Shown here: positions 2,929 through 16,139 of the stretch, one piece after another
Numbering within the stretch: position 1 is the stretch's first letter
Layout: every line of letters begins with the position of its first letter
Assembly: GCA_017512985.1 (NCBI GenBank)
Contig: JAFWEJ010000003.1
Span: forward strand, 1 to 64,000
DNA: 64,000 nt
From: Clostridia bacterium
Lineage (GTDB): Bacteria > Bacillota > Clostridia > Christensenellales > Aristaeellaceae
Direction: 5' to 3'
Notes under the pieces: generated by a model
Told to the model about the DNA's origin: nothing
The model's database searches: none
Seen by the model: only the letters and a program-made list of their open reading frames with translations
Program-made: the position numbers and the translations under genes

Positions 2929-4200
2929 ATGTTCAAAATCATCAGGTTTAACTGCTGTGGACTGGATGTCCACAAAACCTGGATCTTTGCGTGCATCGGG
3001 ATTACCGATGCAAGCTTCCGAACGGAGTACTTTGAAGCTCGCTTCTCGTCGTTTCCAAAGGATCTACGGCGGTTGGCTGCCTGGCTTCAGGAACACAAGT
3101 GTGAGGAAGTCTGCATGGAATCTTCCGGCAAGTATTGGATCCCGGTTTTCAATGTGCTTGAGGAATCATGCAAGGTAACGCTTGCTCATCCCAAGTACAC
3201 CAAGCCACAAAAGGGGAATAAAACTGACCGTAAGGATGCCAGGTGGATCTGCGACCTGTTCATGTGTGGCATGATCAAGCCATCCTTTATCCCACCGCCA
3301 GCTATTCGCCATCTTCGCGACCTTATCCGTTATCGCTTCAAGCTGACGAATATGCTGACCAGTGAGAAGAACCGCGCTCAGAACTGTTTGACCGTCTCCA
3401 ACCTTAAGTTGGATGATGTGTTCTCGGATATCTTCGGAAAGTCCGCCAGGTCTATTACCGAGTATATCCTTTCCCATCCCGGGGAAAAGTTCGATGTCAC
3501 GCCGTTCGTTAACAAACGCTGCAAGACTCCGGTCGACCAAATTCAAGCCGCAGTGGATGGTGCCATCTCGCCTGAACAGGCTGTTAAGCTGCGGGAATGC
3601 CTGAATCACATCGATGAACTCAATGCTCACCGGGACCGGATTGAAGCAGAGATTCTGGATCTTGTAAAACCCTTCTCTGCGCAGCTTGGTCTTATTCGTA
3701 CCGTGCCGGGCATGGATAAAGATCCAATGACTGCAATCCTGATCCTTTCGGAAATCGGCAGCGACATGTCCGTGTTTCCTACAGCCAAGAACCTTGTCTC
3801 CTGGGCTGGCTGTTGCCCCAGGAATGACAAGAGCGCCAAGCATGTGAAGTCTACCCGTATTGCTCAGGCTGGCTGCTATCTCAAGCCGCTTCTTGTTCAG
3901 GTTACCAACGCTCTGCTCAAGTCCAAGAATCACCCGGAGTTTACAGAACGTTATCGCCGCATTAAATCCCATCGTGGTCACAAGAAAGCCATGATCGCCA
4001 TTTGCAAGATGCTCCTGACCGCTATCTGGAACATCCTTTCAACCGGGGAGGTTTACAATCTCAGTGGCTATCTTATCCAGACGCCTCGTCCTTCCAATGA
4101 GACGAAGGTTCTGACTCAGAAGCAAGCTTTGGAATTACTACGGCTCAGGGGATATGTCATTAAGGAAGATCCTGTAGAGCCTGAACCTGTTCTGGCCTGA
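2929..4200 (+). CDS. IS110-family transposase (bridge-RNA-guided recombinase)
   Basis: The 423-residue protein has the IS110 layout. An N-terminal RuvC-like DEDD domain has D13 (GLDVHK), E64 (CMESSGKYW), D100 and D103 (KTDRKDARW). A central coiled-coil segment follows, then a C-terminal Transposase_20 domain from about residue 255 with WAGCCPRNDKSAK, where Ser302 is the expected nucleophile. It cuts and rejoins DNA using a bridge RNA. The start is the ATG after CAGGAGGG. The frame is intact and every catalytic residue is present, so it is probably active. Confidence 0.92.
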   Translation: MFKIIRFNCCGLDVHKTWIFACIGITDASFRTEYFEARFSSFPKDLRRLAAWLQEHKCEEVCMESSGKYWIPVFNVLEESCKVTLAHPKYTKPQKGNKTDRKDARWICDLFMCGMIKPSFIPPPAIRHLRDLIRYRFKLTNMLTSEKNRAQNCLTVSNLKLDDVFSDIFGKSARSITEYILSHPGEKFDVTPFVNKRCKTPVDQIQAAVDGAISPEQAVKLRECLNHIDELNAHRDRIEAEILDLVKPFSAQLGLIRTVPGMDKDPMTAILILSEIGSDMSVFPTAKNLVSWAGCCPRNDKSAKHVKSTRIAQAGCYLKPLLVQVTNALLKSKNHPEFTERYRRIKSHRGHKKAMIAICKMLLTAIWNILSTGEVYNLSGYLIQTPRPSNETKVLTQKQALELLRLRGYVIKEDPVEPEPVLA

Positions 4201-4320: not shown

Positions 4321-6126
4321 TTATCCGTTGCCAATGGACAGATCATCATGCCAAATTTGTTCGATCTCGCCGTTTTCCGCGTTGACCGCTACGGTATAAA
4401 CATCAGGATCATTCCAATAATAAATCATCCATACACGAATGGTATTTCCTTCGTCAGTTACCCACAAAGAGAAGCTTTCATGGAAGGATTCGCCTCTCAC
4501 CAGTGCGCTGCCATCCACTTGGTAAACTGTTTGAATCGCTTCCAGTGCCAAGGCTGCGGCATCTTCCTGCGTTATATCCTTTTCATTCGGTAGCGTATTC
4601 GGATAGAACGCCAGATCGTATCCTGCACTGCGGAATAAAGCGTCATAAGCTGCCCGATCCTCCGGCGACATCTCATCCAGATTCGTTGTTCCAGGATATT
4701 TTTTCAAGATCTGCTGTGCCTGCTCTAACAGATTTAGTACCCATGGAAGCATATCTGCGCTGTATGCCTGGGCTTGTCCCCATGTTTCTTCCGTATAGTT
4801 CCCCGTATCCACATTCAGGAGCGACCATTCGCAGGAAAGGATCTCGCCGGTTTCTACAGAAAGCGTGACCTGGTATTCTCCCAGCTTATCCACATCCGCC
4901 CAATGCCAGTTCCCCATGTTATACGGCAGCCAGGTGATTTGCCAAAGCGAACGATCCTGTTCTTTGACCATGGCGGAACGAACCTGGAACAACGACTGCC
5001 AGTTTCCCTGCAGGCCAAAGGCTGCCTCTGCTGCTTCTTCTGCTTTTTTGATTGCGTCTTTTTCGGACAGGACATTATGCTTTGGAAGGATATACTGTTT
5101 CGGCAGCAAATCGCCGAGCCCAGCCGCTTCATAGCGGGCCGCCACTTCGGCTTTCTCAGCGGCATTCAGCAGATCAAAAGCGCCTTCTGTAACATATTCC
5201 TTCGCTGCGTCTGCATACAGGCTCAAATCGCCTTCCGGCAGCGTCCTGTTTTCTTCTGATACCATCCAGCGGCAATACGTCACATTCCCATCCGGAGAGG
5301 AGACATTGATCACATAGGAGTCGTCCGAACCCTCCATGCTAATCCTGTACTCGCGTCGATCTGTTCCGCCATAAAGGTAGAAGGATACACTGTTTTTTTT
5401 CTTCGAAAGCGCATCTCCACTGATGCCGTATTTTCCCATTACCGCTTTTCTGGCAATCTCCTTAGCCGTTTCTACCGGAATGTCGTCTTTCTCCGGCACG
5501 ATATTGATGAGCAGACCGATCTCCTGTGCTTCCATGAGAGGCGCATCCAGCGCGGCTTTATCTTCAAGCGACAGATCATCCATGTTTTGCACATTCTTCC
5601 ATCTGTCCAAATGCTGCCGGTAGAAAGAGATGATACGCGCCAGCTGTTTCACGCCCCATGCGGGAGAAGTCAGTTCACCGGATGCCACCAGTTCCTGATC
5701 CGCGTTGTCATTGCTCCAGGTTACGGACAACGTACCGTCCGCTTCCTTTTCAACCGTATAAAAGCCCAATTCCTTTTGATGGAACGCGTTCGATTCAAAA
5801 GAAGCGATCCATCCATTTTCAGTATTCTCCCGTCTGTAAGTGAACAGATCCAGCATTTCATCAGTCAGGCCATAAGTTGATTTCACGGCTTCTGCCGCCT
5901 GACGCTGGATTTGATACCGGATAGAGAAGGTAATCCCCAGAGCCAGGGCAGTGCCGACGATCACGGTCATCAAAATAATGGCCAGCACCAATGTGCGTGT
6001 AGGAATTCTGCCCAGACTGATTCCGGGCTTTTTCTTCGCTCTTACAGCTTGCAGGACTTCTGCCTCCCCATGCCAGTCCATATCGCGCAGGGCGGTATCA
6101 ATCGTCTCTTTTAAATTATTCTTCAT
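4321..6126 (-). CDS. Large membrane-anchored anti-sigma-like protein
   Basis: The 601-residue protein has a cytoplasmic N-terminus of about 43 residues, one transmembrane helix at about 44-66 and a long extracytoplasmic part. The latter holds repeated PepSY/YcdB-like segments, each with acidic or Lys-rich helices (EKDAIKKAEEAAEAA, TQEDAAALALEAI) and Tyr/Trp strands. It overlaps the ECF sigma gene by 11 bases, so translation is coupled, the classical sigma/anti-sigma arrangement. It probably holds the sigma factor at the membrane and reads an outside signal through the large domain. The N-terminal sigma-binding part is short and lacks an obvious zinc motif. The function is inferred from topology and position. 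Confidence 0.65.
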   Translation of the reverse strand: MKNNLKETIDTALRDMDWHGEAEVLQAVRAKKKPGISLGRIPTRTLVLAIILMTVIVGTALALGITFSIRYQIQRQAAEAVKSTYGLTDEMLDLFTYRRENTENGWIASFESNAFHQKELGFYTVEKEADGTLSVTWSNDNADQELVASGELTSPAWGVKQLARIISFYRQHLDRWKNVQNMDDLSLEDKAALDAPLMEAQEIGLLINIVPEKDDIPVETAKEIARKAVMGKYGISGDALSKKKNSVSFYLYGGTDRREYRISMEGSDDSYVINVSSPDGNVTYCRWMVSEENRTLPEGDLSLYADAAKEYVTEGAFDLLNAAEKAEVAARYEAAGLGDLLPKQYILPKHNVLSEKDAIKKAEEAAEAAFGLQGNWQSLFQVRSAMVKEQDRSLWQITWLPYNMGNWHWADVDKLGEYQVTLSVETGEILSCEWSLLNVDTGNYTEETWGQAQAYSADMLPWVLNLLEQAQQILKKYPGTTNLDEMSPEDRAAYDALFRSAGYDLAFYPNTLPNEKDITQEDAAALALEAIQTVYQVDGSALVRGESFHESFSLWVTDEGNTIRVWMIYYWNDPDVYTVAVNAENGEIEQIWHDDLSIGNG

Positions 6127-6643
6127 CGAAATACCATCCTTTCAGCGATTCCCTCAAATGGGCTTTTGCCCGGTTCAAGCGGGAGGTTGCGGTGGCAACA
6201 GGGATACGAAGCACCTTGGCAATCTCCGGCACAGTCATTTCCTGATAAAACCGGAGCAGGATCACCTGCTTGTCTTTTTCCGAAAGATTCATAACAGCCT
6301 GCAAAACCGTATCATCAGAATAAGTATCTGCCTTTCCCTGATCCGGCACAGCATCCAGGGTTGTTGTTCGCGTTCTGTTGCGAAACCATGCCGATTTTCG
6401 GACATCTTTACAGGTGTTGATGATGATCCGCGTCAGCCAGGTCTTTTTTCTGGATTCATCCCGGAAGCGATCCATGTGAGTGTAAGCCTTGATGAACGTG
6501 TCCTGAACGGCATCTTCCGCCAGAGCTTCATCGCCCAGGTACATATACGCGATCCGCATCAGAGATGTTTTATGCTCTGCCATCAGTTGGAGCAGTTCAT
6601 GCTCTTTGTCCTGATCAGTTCTGAACGTCGACAGTATACTCAC
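6116..6643 (-). CDS. ECF-type RNA polymerase sigma factor
   Basis: The 175-residue protein has sigma region 2 (about 20-90, LMRIAYMYLGDEALAED and DTFIKAY) and region 4 (about 115-170, LSEKDKQVILLRFYQEMT with a helix-turn-helix PEIAKVLRIPVATATSRL). This is the standard ECF/SigW size. The start is GTG at 6643 with GGAGG seven bases upstream. That ribosome-binding site lies in the last codons of the preceding sigma-like gene, so all three genes are probably translationally linked. It directs RNA polymerase to its own regulon, which cannot be read here. Confidence 0.88.
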   Translation of the reverse strand: MSILSTFRTDQDKEHELLQLMAEHKTSLMRIAYMYLGDEALAEDAVQDTFIKAYTHMDRFRDESRKKTWLTRIIINTCKDVRKSAWFRNRTRTTTLDAVPDQGKADTYSDDTVLQAVMNLSEKDKQVILLRFYQEMTVPEIAKVLRIPVATATSRLNRAKAHLRESLKGWYFDEE

Positions 6644-6647
6644 ATGC

Positions 6648-6941
6648 TCACCTCCTTCGTTTCCGGATAAAAGGCCTCAAGCCCATGCTTTTCATTATAT
6701 TCAGGCGACGCAATTCTGTCATTAAATGTCGGAGAGCCCATACTTTTTCCTCGGTTTGACCAGGATACTGATTGAGTCTCCGTGCCATGATAAAAAAAGC
6801 ATTTGACACTGCTATCTTTGCTAGCTCATGATCCGCAAGATATACATATGAAATACGCATGAACTCCGATTTATAGCGGCTCATGACATGTGTCATTAGT
6901 ACTTTGGCGTCTGTGTCACCGACAAAAGCTGCTCCTTTCAA
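6648..6941 (-). CDS. Sigma-70 region-2-only protein (short paralogue of the adjacent sigma factor)
   Basis: TTG at 6941 follows AGGGAGG with seven bases between, giving 97 residues. The segment SEFMRISYVYLADHELAKIA parallels SLMRIAYMYLGDEALAED of the next gene, and the alignment continues through the region 2 helices. The protein ends in RKRRR without any region 4, so it cannot contact a -35 element in the usual way. It ends four bases before the full sigma gene. It could be a decayed duplicate, or a small protein that binds core RNA polymerase or the anti-sigma. The acidic surface of region 2 is poorly conserved, which favours decay or a changed role. Confidence 0.55.
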   Translation of the reverse strand: MKGAAFVGDTDAKVLMTHVMSRYKSEFMRISYVYLADHELAKIAVSNAFFIMARRLNQYPGQTEEKVWALRHLMTELRRLNIMKSMGLRPFIRKRRR

Positions 6942-7378: not shown

Positions 7379-7915
7379 TCAGACTGTTTTCCGTATCATC
7401 GATTGGATACTTACTATTTCCTGATCTGTCAAATACTGATCATCAAAGCGAAAGAAAAAGGTTTCCGGATACCAAGTCACCCCATTTGGTGCAGCACCGA
7501 GCATAAGATAGAAATCAAAGCCATCCGGTTTGAAAAAGATCACTTTGCTTTTAAGGCGAGTAACAACTTTGCTCTTCTTTGGATCGAAATTCCAGATTGC
7601 TTTATCGGTTTTCAGCAACTCTTCCAGCCGAGCAAGGTTTTCTATCCGTTCTCGTGCATCTGAATCATAGTGAACACTCATCTGTAAATGCAGATCGGTA
7701 ATATTTCCGCGAAGGATATCATGGTAGATGTTTATTGCGTTGCGAACAGTCTGAAATTCATAAACATCATTCAGTTTTCTTAATCCTGCCAGGTGGACAA
7801 AATTCTGGGGCTTGAAAACCAGTTTGATTGTCTCACCGTTGCTGAATGAAAAAGTATACGAACACCGGCATATCTCCCGATATGCCCGTGCAGCAGTCGC
7901 AAGATACTCCGACAA
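7379..7915 (-). CDS. PBECR4-type nuclease domain protein
   Basis: The start is TTG at 7915 with GGAGGG five bases upstream, giving 178 residues; the ATG 36 bases earlier lies inside a terminator hairpin and has no ribosome-binding site. The stretch LVFKPQNFVHLAGLRKL matches the signature of PBECR4, a domain of the Barnase/EndoU/ColicinE5/RelE-like nuclease clan found in phage and toxin proteins. Charged pairs and Tyr residues follow, ending in a beta-rich part (VIFFKPDGFDFYLML). It probably cuts RNA. Whether it acts as a toxin, a defence effector or a phage-derived protein cannot be told; no separate antitoxin gene is visible beside it. Confidence 0.65.
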   Translation of the reverse strand: MSEYLATAARAYREICRCSYTFSFSNGETIKLVFKPQNFVHLAGLRKLNDVYEFQTVRNAINIYHDILRGNITDLHLQMSVHYDSDARERIENLARLEELLKTDKAIWNFDPKKSKVVTRLKSKVIFFKPDGFDFYLMLGAAPNGVTWYPETFFFRFDDQYLTDQEIVSIQSMIRKTV

Positions 7916-7932
7916 GGGAATCCCTCCAAATG

Positions 7933-7960
7933 AAAAAGGCACTCCGGTCATGGTAGTGCC
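7933..7960 (-). terminator. Attenuator-like terminator just before the nuclease gene
   Basis: On the minus strand GGCACT and AGTGCC form a stem around an 11-base loop, followed by TTTTT, and the ribosome-binding site of the nuclease begins six bases later. A transcript from upstream must read through it to reach the nuclease, so this may limit expression. Confidence 0.55.
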
Positions 7961-8174: not shown

Positions 8175-8323
8175 CGATAGCCAACAGATTATCTTTCCTC
8201 ACGTCACAAATATTCGGATTGGAATCATACTAATACTGTTCAATGACCTTCAGAAAAAATTGCATATCATTTTTTCTGCAAGTCTTTTTGAGTCCGGATT
8301 TACAGAGGGTAAATTCGAATCAT

Positions 8324-9001
8324 TCATGAAAGCACAGCATTCAACACATTCGAATAGAGGCCAACCGCTTTCTCTACATCATTCACCCATCCGATCATAT
8401 AGCTCTTCAACGACATAAAAAGATATGAAGACATCGTATCTAAAAAATCGTGATAATCATATTGGTCAATAAAGTCAGACGAATACAGACTGCAAATTGA
8501 TCTCAATCCGAAGAAATTATAAAGTGCTCCAAGTCCATCTATTCTTCTGCGTCGATCCGAGTATTGCATCAGTTTTCTTGCGGTTTCCAGCTTATTATCG
8601 ATATACTTTTGCACAGACCAATCGGATCTGTTAATCTGCTCCTTCATTGAAAAGCATACTGCACTGCTTATTGTTTCTGCTCCTATCATAACCATCAATT
8701 CAACCTGAGATGCATGGTATTCTGTAAACCCATGTAAACAGAAATCATGATTCTTTTCTCCGATAGAATACTTTTCAGCATCAAGAATGTGTGTCAATTC
8801 ATGGAACAGTAGGAATCTTGGAACCTCAAAATTTGTGGGTAACCGCAATGTATGTTTCTTTGTTTTTACATCAAAAATGGCTTGAGCACCATAGATATAA
8901 TCTTTGGAACAGTCTAGAGCATAGTATTGTATTTCAAATTCTGGAAAAGTGTCTATCTCCATGAATTGTTTGTAATTATCTATCATTTTCTCCATCATCA
9001 T
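8324..9001 (-). CDS. HEXXH zinc-metalloprotease-like protein, third gene of a Gabija-like operon
   Basis: The 225-residue protein contains FLLFHELTHILDAE, so H67, E68 and H71 form a zinc HEXXH site. The downstream GFTEYHASQVELM supplies E94 in the position of the third ligand in ImmA/IrrE-like peptidases. The rest is helical, with hydrophobic C-terminal segments. It overlaps the helicase gene by four bases (ATGA), so the two are translationally coupled. Such a gene is not part of the known two-gene Gabija system. It might be a protease effector, a regulator that cleaves a repressor, or a passenger. Confidence 0.6.
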   Translation of the reverse strand: MMMEKMIDNYKQFMEIDTFPEFEIQYYALDCSKDYIYGAQAIFDVKTKKHTLRLPTNFEVPRFLLFHELTHILDAEKYSIGEKNHDFCLHGFTEYHASQVELMVMIGAETISSAVCFSMKEQINRSDWSVQKYIDNKLETARKLMQYSDRRRRIDGLGALYNFFGLRSICSLYSSDFIDQYDYHDFLDTMSSYLFMSLKSYMIGWVNDVEKAVGLYSNVLNAVLS

Positions 9002-10452
9002 ATCCCCTGCGGAGCGCTAAGAAGTACTGACTCTTGATCAGTGATGAAGTAGATCGCCTTCATGGCTCTGGTCATTGCAACATACATTTCAGTAACTGAA
9101 TAACGATTGCTATTGCCCCATCCTGTGTTGACCTTGCTCAAGTCAATGATTACGCAGTCAAATTCAAGTCCTTTCGATAATAGTGTACGCGATGAAAGAT
9201 GCTTAAAATTTGAATATTTGCTTTGATTACCAGGAATCATCCGTATTTCCAGTGCCGCTTTTAAAATAGTGTCTTGGTTATCTCGCGCTCTCCTGATGGA
9301 TCGCTGCATTTCACTGAACAACTCCCGTCTATGAAGGCGCAGATCTTTACACGCCTTTACCCATTCCATAATCCTTAGCATACTGTCATAGCTATTCGTT
9401 TCTCGAAATCTAGTCATCCTATTTCCAAACTCAGGATGCTTCTTAATCCTGTGGAAATCATAATCGCCGCTTATGATATGGCTTTCATATGATCCAAGCT
9501 CACTCGGGACTCCAGAAGCGCATTCGCTAATAAAATCAAACAAAGCCTTTCCTCTTGTGACAACATCATCAATATCAAAAAGCTTTGCAAAATCGTAAAG
9601 TGCTTCTAGATTCTGCTTTTCATCATGTTGGAATATACCCCCGCTGCTTTTTGCAAATGCTTTTGTATCGGTTTCCCATTTGGCGATATATATCACAGAA
9701 TCATATTTTTTTATGATGTCATAGATTACCGATCCATGAATATCCGCAGGATTGATTCGGAATACTGATGTCTGATTGGGAATCGTAGATAGTCTTACTT
9801 CCTTTTTCTCCAATCCCGGGAGTAATTCTTTTCGCACATCATTCAGGTACTGCCCTAGTGCTGGATTTGTTTTCTCCCATCTCCATGGGAATGTATCTAT
9901 TTCGTCCTCAAGAACATCAAAGCAGATGTTTTTCCAAGAGACCAGAGATTCTTTAAATCCGAAAATTGCTTGAAGTGGATCTCCTAACACATATACAGGA
10001 ACCGTCTTGTTCAACTCCACAAAAATCTGGTGCTGTGCAAGTACACAGTCCTGATACTCATCAACAATAACACAGCTATACGTTTTTTTTATAATATCTC
10101 TTGCCCAACTGTGAGTGAATATCTGCGCTGTCCCTGTATGGACCTCTGAATAGAAATCCTTGTCCGTTACCTTAATACCAGGTCTAATACCTGCTGTTGA
10201 CGGATATGCCCCCGTCCATTTCATGCAGAATGAAGAAATTGTTGATAGATAGTACTTTTTCCCATTAACATTTTTCTTGTTGAAGCGTTTCGTAAGGGCA
10301 TCAACACCTGCATTTGTATGCGTCAATACCAGCTTAATTCCAGGCAGCTTATCCACAAGTTCCGTGATCATCTCAGTCTTTCCATGACCTGCTGGAGCAA
10401 TTATCGCGGCATTGTGTTTGGATTGAATAAGTGCTATTTCCTCAGCTTTCAT
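8998..10452 (-). CDS. UvrD/Rep-like superfamily 1 helicase, Gabija GajB-like
   Basis: The 484-residue protein has Walker A APAGHGKTE (19-27), Walker B VIVDEYQD (128-135), motif III GDPLQAIFGF (157-166), and near the C-terminus motif V GLEFDCVIIDL and motif VI YVAMTRAM. It lacks the long 2B insertion of housekeeping UvrD, as GajB proteins do, and the known GajB is about 494 residues. It follows an OLD-type nuclease gene with an 11-base overlap, the arrangement of class 2 OLD nucleases and Gabija. In Gabija the helicase-like subunit joins the GajA tetramer and helps sense or process phage DNA. Confidence 0.75.
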   Translation of the reverse strand: MKAEEIALIQSKHNAAIIAPAGHGKTEMITELVDKLPGIKLVLTHTNAGVDALTKRFNKKNVNGKKYYLSTISSFCMKWTGAYPSTAGIRPGIKVTDKDFYSEVHTGTAQIFTHSWARDIIKKTYSCVIVDEYQDCVLAQHQIFVELNKTVPVYVLGDPLQAIFGFKESLVSWKNICFDVLEDEIDTFPWRWEKTNPALGQYLNDVRKELLPGLEKKEVRLSTIPNQTSVFRINPADIHGSVIYDIIKKYDSVIYIAKWETDTKAFAKSSGGIFQHDEKQNLEALYDFAKLFDIDDVVTRGKALFDFISECASGVPSELGSYESHIISGDYDFHRIKKHPEFGNRMTRFRETNSYDSMLRIMEWVKACKDLRLHRRELFSEMQRSIRRARDNQDTILKAALEIRMIPGNQSKYSNFKHLSSRTLLSKGLEFDCVIIDLSKVNTGWGNSNRYSVTEMYVAMTRAMKAIYFITDQESVLLSAPQGI

Positions 10453-12160
10453 TGCAGGTCACCCAATTCTGTAAAGCGAGAAACTGTGATTTTAATCGGC
10501 ACTCCTGCATTCTATCAAATTCATCAAAGATTCTATCTCCGATCAATTCACCCTTCGATGTATTTTTATACCATTCTGACTTCTTATGTTTTGCAACTGT
10601 CCCGATTTTCACTCGATCCTCACGAGAAATATCTTCTTTGATACATATCTCATCATTTTCCACATCGTACGGAAAGCTTTCTTCAGTAAATGATGCATTC
10701 AATTTTGAAACAACATGCTCAAACGATTTTTCTTCAATAGCTATTGCTAATAGCGCATTAGCGCACTCCAAACTGACATCCTGAAAAATCTGTTCTTCAA
10801 TAGCGTATCCTTGTTCCCAATCAAACACCGGAATATCCAAATTTCGCATTTCCTGCTTCTGTGTTTCTTCATCAGAAATGTCAGAATCCATTAATATGGA
10901 TACATCAAATCCACATCCATGAAGCAATCGAGCAAGCTGAAAGAAATTATCGCCACCGCCTCCAGGAATCATTCCAACACCATAATGTGCAAATCTTGGT
11001 TCGCCTTTCCTTTCTCGATATTTCTCAAATGCTCGGAGCATTCCTACTTCTGTTTTTCCTTCGCAGATAATAACCCTTTTGCAGAGAAATGCATCTGGAT
11101 TAGATCGAAGAAGTGCCTGCACATCAGCAGTAATATCTTCTTTCTCATTAAGATAATGAAGCCTAAATTCCCCTTCGTTATTGCTACAGACAGCCACTTC
11201 CGTCACATTGCACTCACATACTGCACTAACAGAATGTGTGGTCATGATTAATTGGCCATGTTCTTTGAACTCTGTCCGGAAATGATTGATCAATGCGGAA
11301 ATCCGATATGGTTCCAGGCCAGTTTCAACTTCATCAACCAGAACCAGAGTCCCATCATTATATGCATTCACATTCATACCAATGGAAAGAAGTCTCTTGC
11401 TACCTAGTCCCCGTCGTGCAAATGGGACCTTTTCGTCAAACACACCTACTGCAGTAGAATATGATCCGTTCTGCATCAACAAACGATTGTGAATCTCTCC
11501 CTTAAAAGAAACTCCATATTGTCCACCAACTTCCATCATCTTGGGAGCCATTTCATCAAGAGAATCAAGATTTGTATTTTCAACGGCACTTCTCATTGCT
11601 TGTGTGAAAGCTCCATGAAGTGCATCTCGGGAGTCAGCATATTTCTGAAGAACGGACCCTCTACCCCACTGGAAATCCTTTTCATGGTCACATCCAACCA
11701 CACCAAAGGATAACTGGCATCTATCTTTCTGGGATATAGGTCGCGGATCGTTTCTGTTAGTTATCACGTTCCATTTCGGTTCCAAACTCTCGTCTATGGT
11801 TAGCTGAACCGTAAGTATCGTAAATCCATCATCAGTAGGTTCATCATCCCCTTCGAGAAACGATTTTGTATAATCTCTAAGATAAAGGCCAAACTTATTT
11901 TCCTTGACAAGAGCGTCCGGCAATTCTGTCATTGATACGGTTATCTCTATCGGATCAGTAGTATCACAATTGTAGAAATCCATATCTGTAGCTATAAGAC
12001 TCCAAGATGGCCACAAAGCCCATTCGATTGCCGTAAGCAATGTTGATTTACAGCTGTCGCCAGAACCAACCAGACATACAATCCGTGAATCAAGTGGGAA
12101 GAGTACAAACGCATGCTTAATGCCTCGGAAATTCTTGATCTCAACATGTGTAATCCTCAT
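10442..12160 (-). CDS. OLD-family ATPase-TOPRIM nuclease, Gabija GajA-like
   Basis: The 572-residue protein has an ABC-type ATPase domain with Walker A GSGDSCKST (32-40), signature-like RRGLGSKRLL (249-258), Walker B LVLVDEVETGLEP (272-284) and switch TTHS (307-310). A C-terminal TOPRIM domain follows with ICEGKTE (E367) and LMDSDISDEE (D425, D427). This is the domain order and length of GajA (578 residues in Bacillus cereus). It is an ATP-regulated DNA-nicking endonuclease of antiphage systems. The start is preceded by GGAGGTG. Walker A has Asp-Ser-Cys where Gly or Asn are common, but the Lys and Ser/Thr are kept. Confidence 0.8.
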   Translation of the reverse strand: MRITHVEIKNFRGIKHAFVLFPLDSRIVCLVGSGDSCKSTLLTAIEWALWPSWSLIATDMDFYNCDTTDPIEITVSMTELPDALVKENKFGLYLRDYTKSFLEGDDEPTDDGFTILTVQLTIDESLEPKWNVITNRNDPRPISQKDRCQLSFGVVGCDHEKDFQWGRGSVLQKYADSRDALHGAFTQAMRSAVENTNLDSLDEMAPKMMEVGGQYGVSFKGEIHNRLLMQNGSYSTAVGVFDEKVPFARRGLGSKRLLSIGMNVNAYNDGTLVLVDEVETGLEPYRISALINHFRTEFKEHGQLIMTTHSVSAVCECNVTEVAVCSNNEGEFRLHYLNEKEDITADVQALLRSNPDAFLCKRVIICEGKTEVGMLRAFEKYRERKGEPRFAHYGVGMIPGGGGDNFFQLARLLHGCGFDVSILMDSDISDEETQKQEMRNLDIPVFDWEQGYAIEEQIFQDVSLECANALLAIAIEEKSFEHVVSKLNASFTEESFPYDVENDEICIKEDISREDRVKIGTVAKHKKSEWYKNTSKGELIGDRIFDEFDRMQECRLKSQFLALQNWVTCNES

Positions 12161-12205
12161 ACTGTCCGCACCTCCTCTCCGACTTGATCTTATGTCCAGT
12201 AATTA

Positions 12206-12462: not shown

Positions 12463-12822
12463 TTAATCTTCATAGATCAATTCATTACAGATGATCTCTT
12501 CAACCTGTGCCTTGCAGGTATTCATGATCCCAACCCATTTGATCTGATCCCTGACTTTCAGTTTCTCTGTTGCACCTGCGGATGCTGCCAGTTCCGGAAG
12601 GATCGTATCCATCCTTTCCTGTGCCGCACGATCTGTTTCATACAGGTGATCGTACAGCGTGCCAGCCAGAAGCATTCTGGTATACAGGCCAGACCGATGT
12701 TCCTCAAGGTATGCCTTCCTCATTCTACCGTAAAGTCCAAGGGGTTTCTGCTGGTTCTTCGGAATCGTCCAGTCCGGGATGTAGTAATCTCCTTCTTTGC
12801 GATACTGAATATTCATGTTCAT
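12463..12822 (-). CDS. TnpV family transposon-encoded protein
   Basis: The 119-residue product matches the TnpV family found beside mobilization and transposon genes in Clostridia: an N-terminal YYIPDWTIPKNQQKPLG, a basic segment (YGRMRKAYLEEHR), and a C-terminal helix ending near EEIICNELIYED. The molecular role is unknown. It overlaps the upstream ribbon-helix-helix gene by four bases, so the two are co-translated, and it ends at a terminator. Its presence supports a mobile origin for the surrounding island. Confidence 0.8.
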   Translation of the reverse strand: MNMNIQYRKEGDYYIPDWTIPKNQQKPLGLYGRMRKAYLEEHRSGLYTRMLLAGTLYDHLYETDRAAQERMDTILPELAASAGATEKLKVRDQIKWVGIMNTCKAQVEEIICNELIYED

Positions 12823-13142
12823 GACGCCTCCTTCATTCCGGCCATAATCCGGCCGATCATCGATAATGTTTCTGTCAATTCATCGCTCAGTTGATCCCCG
12901 GGGTTCAGTCTGCTCAGTTCATCCAGGATAGCTTTCATCTCCCGGCGCAGGGCCGCAAAGACTTTCGGATTTCCCTGAACGATAACATCTTGCTCCGTCA
13001 ACCGCCGCATGATATAATCCTGCTTGGTCAGGCCGGTCAGTTTGACCAGCCTTTCGATTTGTTCATCCTCTTCGGGAGAAACCCGAAAGGCAACCGTGAT
13101 ATTTCTCCAGCGCCCGTGCGCATCTAACACCTTTTCTGACAT
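12819..13142 (-). CDS. MobC-like ribbon-helix-helix protein
   Basis: The 107-residue protein begins with a ribbon-helix-helix segment (NITVAFRVSPEEDEQIERLV, then GLTKQDYIMRRL). A helical C-terminal part follows, as in plasmid-mobilization accessory proteins of the MobC/TraJ type. These bind near oriT and assist the relaxase. GAGGAGGG lies eight bases before the ATG. No relaxase gene is in the window, so the mobilization module is incomplete or the protein acts as a repressor. A palindrome at 13208-13239 lies in its promoter region and is a possible binding site. Confidence 0.65.
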   Translation of the reverse strand: MSEKVLDAHGRWRNITVAFRVSPEEDEQIERLVKLTGLTKQDYIMRRLTEQDVIVQGNPKVFAALRREMKAILDELSRLNPGDQLSDELTETLSMIGRIMAGMKEAS

Positions 13143-13535: not shown

Positions 13536-13721
13536 TTAGTTTTCTGAAACCAATTCAAGAGCGTCCACTGGTGTAGTAAGTACCTCGATAGTATCGCCGT
13601 CTTCATCAAAGAATTCGACTTCGAAATGTGGTCCATCATATTCCAGAACAATTGTCCCTTTTGTCCCGGCTGGAAGTCCCTCAAACTCTCTAGTAAGTTT
13701 TACCACATCCAATTCTTTCAT
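13536..13721 (-). CDS. DUF4926 protein, probable immunity protein
   Basis: This 61-residue protein matches DUF4926, a small beta-barrel with DVVKLTREFEGLPAGTKGTIV, then EVEFFDEDGDTIEVLT. DUF4926 proteins are commonly encoded next to small toxin domains as candidate immunity or antitoxin proteins. Here the gene overlaps the DUF6883 gene by four bases, so the two are made together. The acidic surface suits binding to the basic DUF6883 partner. The family match is clear; the immunity role is inferred from the pairing. Confidence 0.75.
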   Translation of the reverse strand: MKELDVVKLTREFEGLPAGTKGTIVLEYDGPHFEVEFFDEDGDTIEVLTTPVDALELVSEN

Positions 13722-14134
13722 TTCTTACCCTCCTTTTTATCCGGATATACAGTAACAATCTTGAAAGTTTTTCTACTCTTGTCCTTCTGGATCACAATAA
13801 CTACATTAGCATTTACGGCTTTTCCATTCTTGCCGGAAAGAGTTGTCTTAAAAGTCAGTTTTGTCCCGTATTCTGTTTCTTCCGTCTTATCCGGTTGCTT
13901 TCCTATAATGGAAGAAACAACATTCTTGTGAAATGTCTTTGAATCCGACTGTGAATAGCCCAAGGTGTCATGGAAAAATTTGGCCTTCGCTCCTCCCTGG
14001 GGATGGTTTGGGTTCAGCAAATAATCCACCGTCTTCTTCTTGCTGTATCTGACATCACCTGATGTCTTGACAGGAGCGTTACTCGTTTTTGCTCCCCTTG
14101 TTCCGCCAAAGCCTCCGTGTATTCCAGCTCCCAT
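13718..14134 (-). CDS. DUF6883 toxin-like protein
   Basis: The 138-residue basic protein has a Gly-rich N-terminus and then the DUF6883 core: YLLNPNHPQGGAKAKFFHD, LGYSQSDSKTFHKNV and strands ending in KTFKIVTVYP. DUF6883 occurs as the C-terminal toxin domain of polymorphic toxins and as a stand-alone protein, and is thought to be nuclease-like. The gene shares one base with the DUF4417 gene and overlaps the DUF4926 gene by four. No signal peptide is present, so it probably acts inside the cell as a toxin-antitoxin pair. Confidence 0.7.
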   Translation of the reverse strand: MGAGIHGGFGGTRGAKTSNAPVKTSGDVRYSKKKTVDYLLNPNHPQGGAKAKFFHDTLGYSQSDSKTFHKNVVSSIIGKQPDKTEETEYGTKLTFKTTLSGKNGKAVNANVVIVIQKDKSRKTFKIVTVYPDKKEGKK

Positions 14135-14802
14135 TACGCCTCCACCTCTTTTCTGTGCGCAGAAGCGAATTCACTGTCGAACTGCACGATCTTAATTCCA
14201 ATGCTTTTATACTTCCTGAAAATGTATTCGGGCGCTGAACCATAAACGATTATCATCTTTGGCTTTAAGGTGCGAATAACATACTCAAGTCCTTTTTCGA
14301 AATGTTTTCGTTCCTCCAGTAATTTTATACAACCATGTGAACCGATTGCTATAGTTGCATTTTTCGGCACACCACAACAGCACAATCTATATGATCGTTC
14401 ATCACCCCATCTGACATTCGCAATAACCGGAATATCATTATCCTGTAACCAAACAGCAATTGCATGACTCCGATAAATATTCCAAAACTGCATAACAAGA
14501 GGCATATCTCGATACAAACTAAAGTCCGGCGCAATAACGCCTTTATATCGTTTCAATATCGGCATATATTTCTTCGGATGTTGCCAAAGGCGCTCAAACA
14601 TGGCATCATCCTCATAAAAATGCACCCATGCATCTGGATTATTCCCACTAATGGCTTTCGAAAATGGGATTAATCTAACCGGAATCAGAGATTCCGACGC
14701 AATAGCTGGTATTTCCAGTTTACCCTCATAAGTTGCGTTTTTCACCATAAACGCATGGAAAACGTCTTTGCATCCCTTACGGGCACAATTAATCTGAGAC
14801 AT
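14134..14802 (-). CDS. DUF4417 domain protein
   Basis: The 222-residue protein matches DUF4417, a family of phage and integrative elements. Signature stretches are WVHFYEDDAMFERLW, GVIAPDFSLYRDMP and VIANVRWGDERSYRLC, with repeated Cys and Gly near CCCGVP and IGSHGC. The biochemical role is unknown. GGAGGG lies nine bases before the ATG. It heads a three-gene operon with a toxin-like and an immunity-like gene. Its transcript starts in a leader with two copies of a covarying hairpin, suggesting controlled expression. Confidence 0.75.
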   Translation of the reverse strand: MSQINCARKGCKDVFHAFMVKNATYEGKLEIPAIASESLIPVRLIPFSKAISGNNPDAWVHFYEDDAMFERLWQHPKKYMPILKRYKGVIAPDFSLYRDMPLVMQFWNIYRSHAIAVWLQDNDIPVIANVRWGDERSYRLCCCGVPKNATIAIGSHGCIKLLEERKHFEKGLEYVIRTLKPKMIIVYGSAPEYIFRKYKSIGIKIVQFDSEFASAHRKEVEA

Positions 14803-15136: not shown

Positions 15137-15793
15137 TCAAAGCCAGCGTTCTCTCTCACGCTGCTTCTCATACTCTTCATCAAAATCGAAACCATTCGTA
15201 ATGGGGCAAATTCGATTAAGAAATGACGCATATTTCAGCAGGATAATATCATCAAATTCACGTTCCGCTCTGGATCGCCATTCAGAACTTGTTTTTGCAA
15301 GCGTTAAGATCCGCTTGTCTGCTGCAAGACCAGACACACCAAACTCTGACTGCAAAAAACCAGATGAAATGTGAACACCACGATGCTGTAGTTCCCGAAT
15401 CAACTGTTCAGGCATAAGTAGCTGCGCTGTGAAGAAATTTGTCTCTACTTCATATCGTCCATATACTTCTTCATCCTTAAGTCTATAATCGTGCTTATTA
15501 ATCAAATGACCAAGCTCATGAATAATGGAAAAATAGATATGTGCATTTGGCTTTGAATCGTCATAGAAAATGATCGTTTTACCGCCCATGGACATTATTA
15601 TAGCCGACTCACTTCCGAAATCCTCCATATTAATGCCATATCTGCGAGCCAATGAATAACTTCTGCAAACACACAGAGCTTGTTCTTTTACCAGTTCTAC
15701 CGGTGAAAAAGGAAATGAAGCAATAATATTGGATCTGACCAGGATTTCATTTGCAGCGGAATATGCCCTGGAAAAATTTGGCTTCATCTCCAT
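15137..15793 (-). CDS. ImmA/IrrE-type metallopeptidase
   Basis: The 218-residue protein contains SIIHELGHLINKH (zinc HEXXH) and downstream YEVETNFFTAQLLMP, the conserved Glu/Ala helix of ImmA/IrrE peptidases. In integrative elements such as ICEBs1 the ImmA protease cleaves the neighbouring XRE repressor to induce the element. The gene starts seven bases after the XRE stop, exactly this pairing. The ATG at 15793 is preferred to one 45 bases upstream because the latter lies inside the XRE gene without a ribosome-binding site. Confidence 0.85.
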   Translation of the reverse strand: MEMKPNFSRAYSAANEILVRSNIIASFPFSPVELVKEQALCVCRSYSLARRYGINMEDFGSESAIIMSMGGKTIIFYDDSKPNAHIYFSIIHELGHLINKHDYRLKDEEVYGRYEVETNFFTAQLLMPEQLIRELQHRGVHISSGFLQSEFGVSGLAADKRILTLAKTSSEWRSRAEREFDDIILLKYASFLNRICPITNGFDFDEEYEKQRERERWL

Positions 15794-15800
15794 TGTGTTC

Positions 15801-16139
15801 TCACCCTTCGTTATCATCGAAAATATCATAGAAGGCATTTCTAAGTATCGTTTCCGCCCTCTTTAATTTTTCGTGGTCCAGTTTCTGAAGATTTCTTTGC
15901 AGATAAAGCAACTCCTTGTCCTCCGAACTGATCATTGAATCTGATGTTCCTAGTAAATAATCCGTTGTTGTTCCTAGCTCTTTTGCCATTCGAGTCAATA
16001 CATCGCTTCGCGGAGTGCGTAATCCTTTAACGTAATATGACATAGCAGATTCAGTTACACCGACTTTAGTTGCAAGTTCTTTTTGCGACAGATCCAGCTT
16101 TTTTAACAATGCATTAACACGATCACTAAAAACAGACAC
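15801..16139 (-). CDS. XRE-family repressor, probable ImmA substrate
   Basis: The 112-residue protein has an N-terminal Cro/C1 helix-turn-helix (SQKELATKVGVTESAMSYY) with MAKELGTTTDYLLG after it, and a C-terminal helical region. The start is GTG at 16139 with AAGGGGG upstream. It is co-transcribed with ImmA and probably represses the operon and the divergent HigB promoter region until cleaved. It resembles repressors of integrative elements and prophages. Confidence 0.85.
   Translation of the reverse strand: MSVFSDRVNALLKKLDLSQKELATKVGVTESAMSYYVKGLRTPRSDVLTRMAKELGTTTDYLLGTSDSMISSEDKELLYLQRNLQKLDHEKLKRAETILRNAFYDIFDDNEG

Follow-up and report, generated by a model that had tools for sequence, protein, structure and literature searches.

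We analyzed a 64,000-nucleotide stretch of the genome of a gut-dwelling Clostridia bacterium from the family Aristaeellaceae (positions 1 to 64,000 of contig JAFWEJ010000003.1, assembly GCA_017512985.1), referred to below as the window. Its reverse strand encodes an operon of three overlapping genes, in which a gajA-gajB pair is followed by a small gene whose product contains an HEXXH motif (the HEXXH gene and the HEXXH protein). The features of the operon, with the evidence for each, are:

10442..12160, minus strand: gajA-like gene (OLD-family ATPase with a TOPRIM nuclease domain, 572 amino acids); open reading frame (ORF), Pfam, PADLOC
8998..10452, minus strand: gajB-like gene (UvrD-type SF1 helicase, 484 amino acids); ORF, Pfam, PADLOC
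8324..9001, minus strand: HEXXH gene (225 amino acids, predicted zincin-type metallopeptidase); ORF, conserved residues, AlphaFold2 model, ratio of nonsynonymous to synonymous divergence (dN/dS)
8788..8802, minus strand: HELTH codons (residues 67-71, a motif predicted to bind zinc and to be catalytic); position counted from the ORF start (9001)
8720..8722, minus strand: Glu94 codon, within EYHA (the residue predicted as third zinc ligand); position counted from the same ORF start

The gajB gene lies directly downstream of gajA and overlaps it by 11 bases (10442-10452), and the HEXXH gene overlaps gajB by 4 bases (8998-9001, ATGA). Profile matches place the operon in one PADLOC subtype of Gabija: residues 1-568 of the 572 in GajA match PDLC04168 (510 bits), and residues 8-475 of the 484 in GajB match PDLC04173 (334 bits). 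In Pfam, AAA_15 and OLD-like_TOPRIM are above the cut-off for GajA, and GajB matches UvrD-helicase. A preliminary description of this locus had already named it a Gabija-like operon with an added HEXXH gene. Its ORF sizes, gene order, both overlaps, the HELTH motif, and the downstream glutamate all proved exact when we reread the ORFs, and the near full-length matches to GajA and GajB bear out the identity of the system. The Walker A motif of GajA (residues 32-40) reads GSGDSCKST, with cysteine in place of the usual glycine; two related operons considered below have glycine (L011) and threonine (L042).

Conserved site and predicted fold of the HEXXH protein

In alignments of 10 sequences, the H, E, T, and H of HELTH are invariant, as is E94 within EYHA. 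The full conserved set is H50, H67-E68-x-T70-H71-x-x-D74, and E94-Y95-H96-A97. An HExxH pattern occurs in 3 of the 67 non-overlapping ORFs of at least 100 amino acids in the window, including the HEXXH gene and a gene for an ImmA-like protein (15137-15838); a chance motif is ruled out by the invariance of the motif, E94, and the flanking residues over the 10 rows.

The AlphaFold2 model of the protein (predicted local distance difference test [pLDDT], 89.6; predicted template modeling score [pTM], 0.89) begins with a helix (residues 3-14) and three strands (23-27, 40-44, and 49-55), followed by the HEXXH helix (62-78) and a helix containing E94 (83-105). As modeled, this is the order of secondary structures of a zincin, with the HEXXH helix and a conserved glutamate on the next helix. 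Among the 50 structural matches listed for the model, nearly all are HEXXH-type metallopeptidases. The 225-residue product is probably a zinc protease, and the earlier proposal of an added, probably catalytic HEXXH gene is supported by the conserved site, the predicted fold, and the selection described below.

No PADLOC model matched the protein at E <= 1, and no curated cut-off was reached. Nor did it match Pfam M78 (PF06114) at E <= 1, whereas the window's ImmA-like protein scored 46.8 bits in the same scan. A profile comparison of these two proteins gave a weak result (probability 8%).

Relatives of the HEXXH protein and their partners

When the HEXXH protein was scanned against contigs of 84,980 species, blind to neighboring genes, four close loci were found (L010 to L013); with the window, this makes five, and the proteins are 49-98% identical. 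L010 and L011 have gajA-gajB in front of the HEXXH gene, and their HEXXH proteins are 98% and 81% identical to the window's. In L012, from Oribacterium sp. NK2B42, the protein is 49% identical and is encoded behind a complete qatABCD operon (PADLOC scores of 541 bits for QatA, 240 for QatB, 451 for QatC, and 248 for QatD). In L013, a metagenome-assembled genome (MAG) of Lachnospiraceae, the HEXXH gene is cut by the contig end (58% identity over 139 residues) and lies behind the PADLOC candidate PDC-S46 (656 bits), which is itself behind an integrase-like gene, as read by eye.

In all five cases, the gene is coupled to the end of a defense operon. Its start overlaps the last operon gene by 4 bases in the window, L010, and L013 and by 8 bases in L012; in L011, the overlap is 4 bases if TTG is the start, and otherwise there is a gap of 2 bases. 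The partners are Gabija at three loci (one lineage), qatABCD at one, and PDC-S46 at one, so there are three independent contexts, and by PADLOC matches Gabija shares no component with Qat or PDC-S46. A stretch adjoining the active site, E82-K83-N84-H85-D86-x-C88-L89, is among the residues special to this defense clade and is invariant across all of the partners.

The three Gabija loci also show how the genes evolve together. The window and L010 are 98.9% identical in DNA across window positions 8265-12093. On one side this stretch runs on for 59 bases past the HEXXH stop codon; on the other it stops inside gajA, 137 bases before the end of the L010 contig. The window and L011 are 88% identical (window 8346-12197), with dN/dS of 0.12 for gajA, 0.09 for gajB, and 0.27 for the HEXXH gene, and with synonymous divergence (dS) of 0.37, 0.66, and 0.42, respectively. 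Because dN/dS is low and the dS values are of the same order, the HEXXH gene is real, is under selection, and has diverged together with gajAB. It travels and diverges with gajAB and evolves faster, yet is constrained.

Two features of these loci deserve mention. In L011, a fourth gene (5990-6742) shares 4 bases with the end of the HEXXH gene and encodes a DpnII/MboI-like restriction domain, with weak matches to Aga_Helical-REase; the operon end can therefore grow further. In L010, a MAG contig (1-3232), gajB is broken into two frames, and gajA differs in its first 22 codons, near the contig end, due to either decay or assembly error.

The preliminary description had suggested that the HEXXH gene might be a third working component of Gabija, and had proposed counting how often it lies directly after OLD-UvrD pairs. 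It does so in 3 of the 5 close relatives (the window, L010, and L011, which are one lineage), while L012 and L013 have the other partners, and in 0 of the 7 next-nearest relatives. The suggestion of a component specific to Gabija is weakened by the Qat and PDC-S46 partners and by relatives of this GajA/GajB subtype without the gene (see below); what survives is the wider proposal of a working add-on of several systems. As the main explanation, a Gabija-only component is ruled out by the close relatives behind Qat and PDC-S46.

A tree of 18 proteins groups the five close relatives together with an ultrafast bootstrap of 89, which is under the tool's mark of 95, and a Shimodaira-Hasegawa-like approximate likelihood ratio test (SH-aLRT) support of 96. 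A larger group of 12 that contains them has support of 100/99. The other seven proteins in that group are 33-40% identical to the window's HEXXH protein and have different surroundings. One, found in L014 and identical in L036, is encoded by the last gene of a Tn554-like element, and the stretch that L014 and L036 have in common (98.7% identical) ends 96 bases past this gene. Two belong to prophages, one in a tail cluster (L015) and one close to an integrase (L016). L067 follows a gene for a large serine recombinase, and L037 and L038 are near contig ends without an operon. The seventh, in L028 (193-2259), is fused to the N terminus of a membrane protein, as judged by eye, and has lost the first histidine of HEXXH. 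Ten neighbor proteins in L014, L015, L016, L037, L038, and L067 had no PADLOC match at E <= 0.001. If the Gabija loci are counted as one context, then 3 of 3 contexts of the close clade are linked to defense, versus 0 of 6 for the rest, which by simple counting, after the fact, has a chance of 1 in 84. Since the next-nearest relatives live without a defense operon, for example in a Tn554-like element and in prophages, the HEXXH protein can work alone.

The more distant paralogs are either genes of phages (L017-L019) or chromosomal, the latter present in 22 of 24 genomes of L013's genus. In L029 and L039, a distant chromosomal paralog (about 270-330 amino acids) adjoins similar, secreted-looking proteins of 415-417 amino acids (by eye). 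The L014 record, MT835648.1, is labeled as Bacteriophage sp.; it matches the Tn554-like element of L036, which is inside a 3.6 Mb contig, with 98.7% identity over 8.8 kb, and from this match the record is probably not a phage.

All three defense systems also occur without the gene. On plasmids, relatives of GajA (291 records), QatC (92), and PDC-S46 (25), all under 60% identity, are common, yet no homolog of the HEXXH protein was detectable at E <= 0.01. Viral contigs scanned with the L012 protein gave no relative. Around six GajB relatives from viral contigs (L042-L047, 27-45% identical) and in six plasmid neighborhoods (L070-L075), none of 454 ORFs matched the family profile, for which a positive control scored 341 bits. 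Some of these loci have limited reach: L043 and L047 break off shortly past gajB or inside it, and an IS3 element truncates the gajB of L070. In L042 (whose GajB is 45% identical), L044, L045, and L046, at least 487 bases downstream of gajB are present and contain no HEXXH homolog. As relatives of Gabija, Qat, and PDC-S46 all occur without it, the HEXXH gene is optional to each. In L074, a Delftia plasmid (NZ_CP065697.1), qatABCD is followed directly by genes for an OLD-type endonuclease and a UvrD-type helicase; the HEXXH gene is absent.

The close clade was not found beyond L010-L013 in the sampled order, phylum, family, and genus genomes. The HEXXH protein was present in 1 of 396 genomes in the order sample (single-protein query) and 1 of 398 in the phylum sample, in both cases the window's own, and in 2 of 61 from a sample of relatives (the window's own and G794). 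The families of the L012 and L011 genomes, for which only part of the candidates were scored in some genomes, gave 6 of 397 (L012 itself, three from the next-nearest group, and two distant) and 2 of 295 (L011 itself and L067). By genus, the counts were 1 of 17 for L012, 1 of 25 for L011, and, as noted, 22 of 24 for L013, nearly all distant paralogs. The window's GajA occurs in 2 of 45 genomes of its genus, and both carry the HEXXH gene, one being the window's own genome. A count of the GajB subtype gave 0 of 190 genomes, with equally silent controls, and is hence uninformative.

In the window, the operon is part of an island in DNA of 38-45% G+C, beside a part of the genome with 50-60%. Remains of mobile elements surround it: TnpV and NikA-like genes (12463-13142), an XRE/ImmA-like pair (15137-16139), and an IS110 transposase (2929-4200). 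In the pair, about 3 kb upstream of gajA on the minus strand, an XRE repressor (15801-16139) overlaps the gene for the ImmA-like M78 protease, an arrangement typical of integrative-element control. After the operon and a gap of 372 bases, 7379-7951 (minus strand) encodes a nuclease-like protein with a PBECR4 domain (73 bits); polyvalent proteins, too, can carry PBECR domains (PMC5512222; this and the papers below are cited for particular passages). Adjacent genes with DUF4926 and DUF6883 (13536-14134, minus strand), then DUF4417 (14134-14802), lie in the same island, and the first two are possibly a toxin-antitoxin-like pair.

Possible roles of the protein

We favor, tentatively and with somewhat less than even confidence, the view that the HEXXH gene is a portable zinc-protease cassette behind different defense operons, most likely a self-sufficient, infection-triggered second line resembling Lit. 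Its linkage to defense operons and the purifying selection on it are observed, whereas its activity and mechanism are inferred. Through translational coupling at the 3' end, it would be co-expressed with whichever defense operon it landed behind. The cytoplasmic protease would be silent until infection; once triggered, it would cleave a host protein (an essential one) or one of the phage, much as EF-Tu is cut by Lit, also a zincin, upon T4 infection (PMC3506569). Zincins are also described as conflict effectors in section 8 of PMC5512222. Such an abortive second line would act once a nuclease-type or DNA-targeting partner is beaten, and would need no specific contact with the partner's proteins. 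Because the clade-specific residues are constant whatever the partner, what the protease recognizes is probably a feature shared by infected cells, and not a surface of GajA, QatB, or PDC-S46: the invariant EKNHDxCL stretch would be expected of a fixed substrate, not of a surface coevolving with GajA and GajB. Weighing against the contrast between the close clade and its next-nearest relatives, some of the latter do have defense-like genes farther off: L014 has a typeIV_DinG-like helicase, L038 a type IIG-like gene lying 2.6 kb upstream, and L037 a ThsB-like gene at a distance of 8.7 kb upstream.

A subunit or a regulator of Gabija seems less likely to us than a self-sufficient second line. 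As a third component, the protease would be bound or triggered by GajAB and would cleave a target, or GajA or GajB, when phage DNA is sensed. The three-gene block is stable and co-diverging in the window, L010, and L011, and both genomes of the window's genus with its GajA have the HEXXH gene. However, the same clade is found behind Qat and PDC-S46, beyond the three Gabija loci the wider family has no member behind an OLD-UvrD pair, and the 45%-identical GajB of L042 is in an operon without the gene, so we consider this role unlikely. A passenger is only slightly easier to accept, and we doubt it too: a mobile-element gene without a defense role, which perhaps helps the element establish, might often land at the ends of cargo operons. 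Such help in establishment has been proposed for the zincin domains of polyvalent proteins, ArdC among them. Relatives of the HEXXH protein are in prophages, in a Tn554-like element, and next to the gene of a large serine recombinase, and the distant family is broad, including the chromosomal paralog in 22 of 24 genomes. But overlapping starts behind three different defense operons exceed mere proximity, and the gene has diverged with gajAB under purifying selection.

Regulation of the operon would explain the changes of partner, if the protein were a generic controller. Like CapP acting on CapH, the protease might remove a repressor or the defense proteins themselves, and so restrain a toxic system or activate it after DNA damage; CapH with CapP and CapK with CapS are regulators common to diverse immune operons (PMC13373217). 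We think this improbable, as the HEXXH gene is last in the operon instead of on the promoter side, and there is no paired helix-turn-helix (HTH) gene in the window, L011, L012, or L013. The nearest XRE gene in the window (15801-16139) has its own ImmA-like partner. An ImmA/IrrE-type regulator is further weakened by the absence of the M78 match that the ImmA-like gene does have and by the weak profile comparison. More improbable still is that the protease destroys phage inhibitors of defense complexes or processes a partner protein into its mature form. Phages are known to encode inhibitors of Gabija (PMC10781630), and this role would fit co-expression with several systems, but a single protease would have to recognize inhibitors of three unrelated systems.

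Comparison with known systems

The operon resembles Gabija, which pairs a class 2 OLD protein with a UvrD-type helicase, in its gene order, sizes, domains, and near full-length profile matches. It differs by the third coupled gene: passages of PMC10781630 and PMC10568477 describe Gabija as two genes. The similarity of the window's GajB to solved GajB chains is limited (E of about 1e-5, one short stretch), and for GajA the one solved chain that turned up (6p74) belongs to a class 1 OLD protein. The qatABCD operon of L012 and the PDC-S46 operon of L013 bear the HEXXH relative at the 3' end, whereas qatABCD is described in part of PMC13279940 as four genes and the plasmid relatives of both systems have no detectable HEXXH homolog. 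In the literature on Gabija with a metalloprotease, third, or accessory gene, and on HEXXH proteins with Qat, we did not find a shared module described.

Among metallopeptidases, the protein can be compared with the zincin-like metallopeptidase (MPTase) domains of polyvalent proteins, as portrayed in parts of PMC5512222: these also have an N-terminal helix, three strands, the HEXXH helix, and a glutamate in the next helix. One phage-type clade shares an aspartate three residues past HEXXH and a conserved histidine in the preceding sheet. Here, however, the protein is a single-domain gene product, helical throughout its C-terminal half (about 100 residues) and encoded in defense operons; the 12 clades were compared by written description only. 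ImmA/IrrE and CapP (M78) are also HEXXH metallopeptidases tied to mobile elements and defense operons, but the HEXXH protein has no M78 match at E <= 1 and no paired HTH repressor, and its gene is at the 3' end rather than the promoter side. The likeness to Lit, from prophage e14, lies in the proposed action as an abortive-infection zincin and in the mobile-element origin, and was drawn by analogy (PMC3506569).

Effector sharing among defense systems is already known, as for NucC and for the CHAT protease in Borvo and type III-E CRISPR (PMC10952713). Marginally more tentative than the cassette reading as a whole is our view that one small zinc-protease family is a portable effector module at the 3' end of Gabija, Qat, and PDC-S46, a protein-cleaving second line and thus a proteolytic counterpart to NucC. 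If so, these three systems would have a common unrecognized add-on that is absent from current catalog models, with a bearing on how defense lines are stacked and on why a "two-gene" system might behave differently by host. It would also offer a rule for finding such modules: a close clade that is always translationally coupled to the ends of unrelated defense operons.

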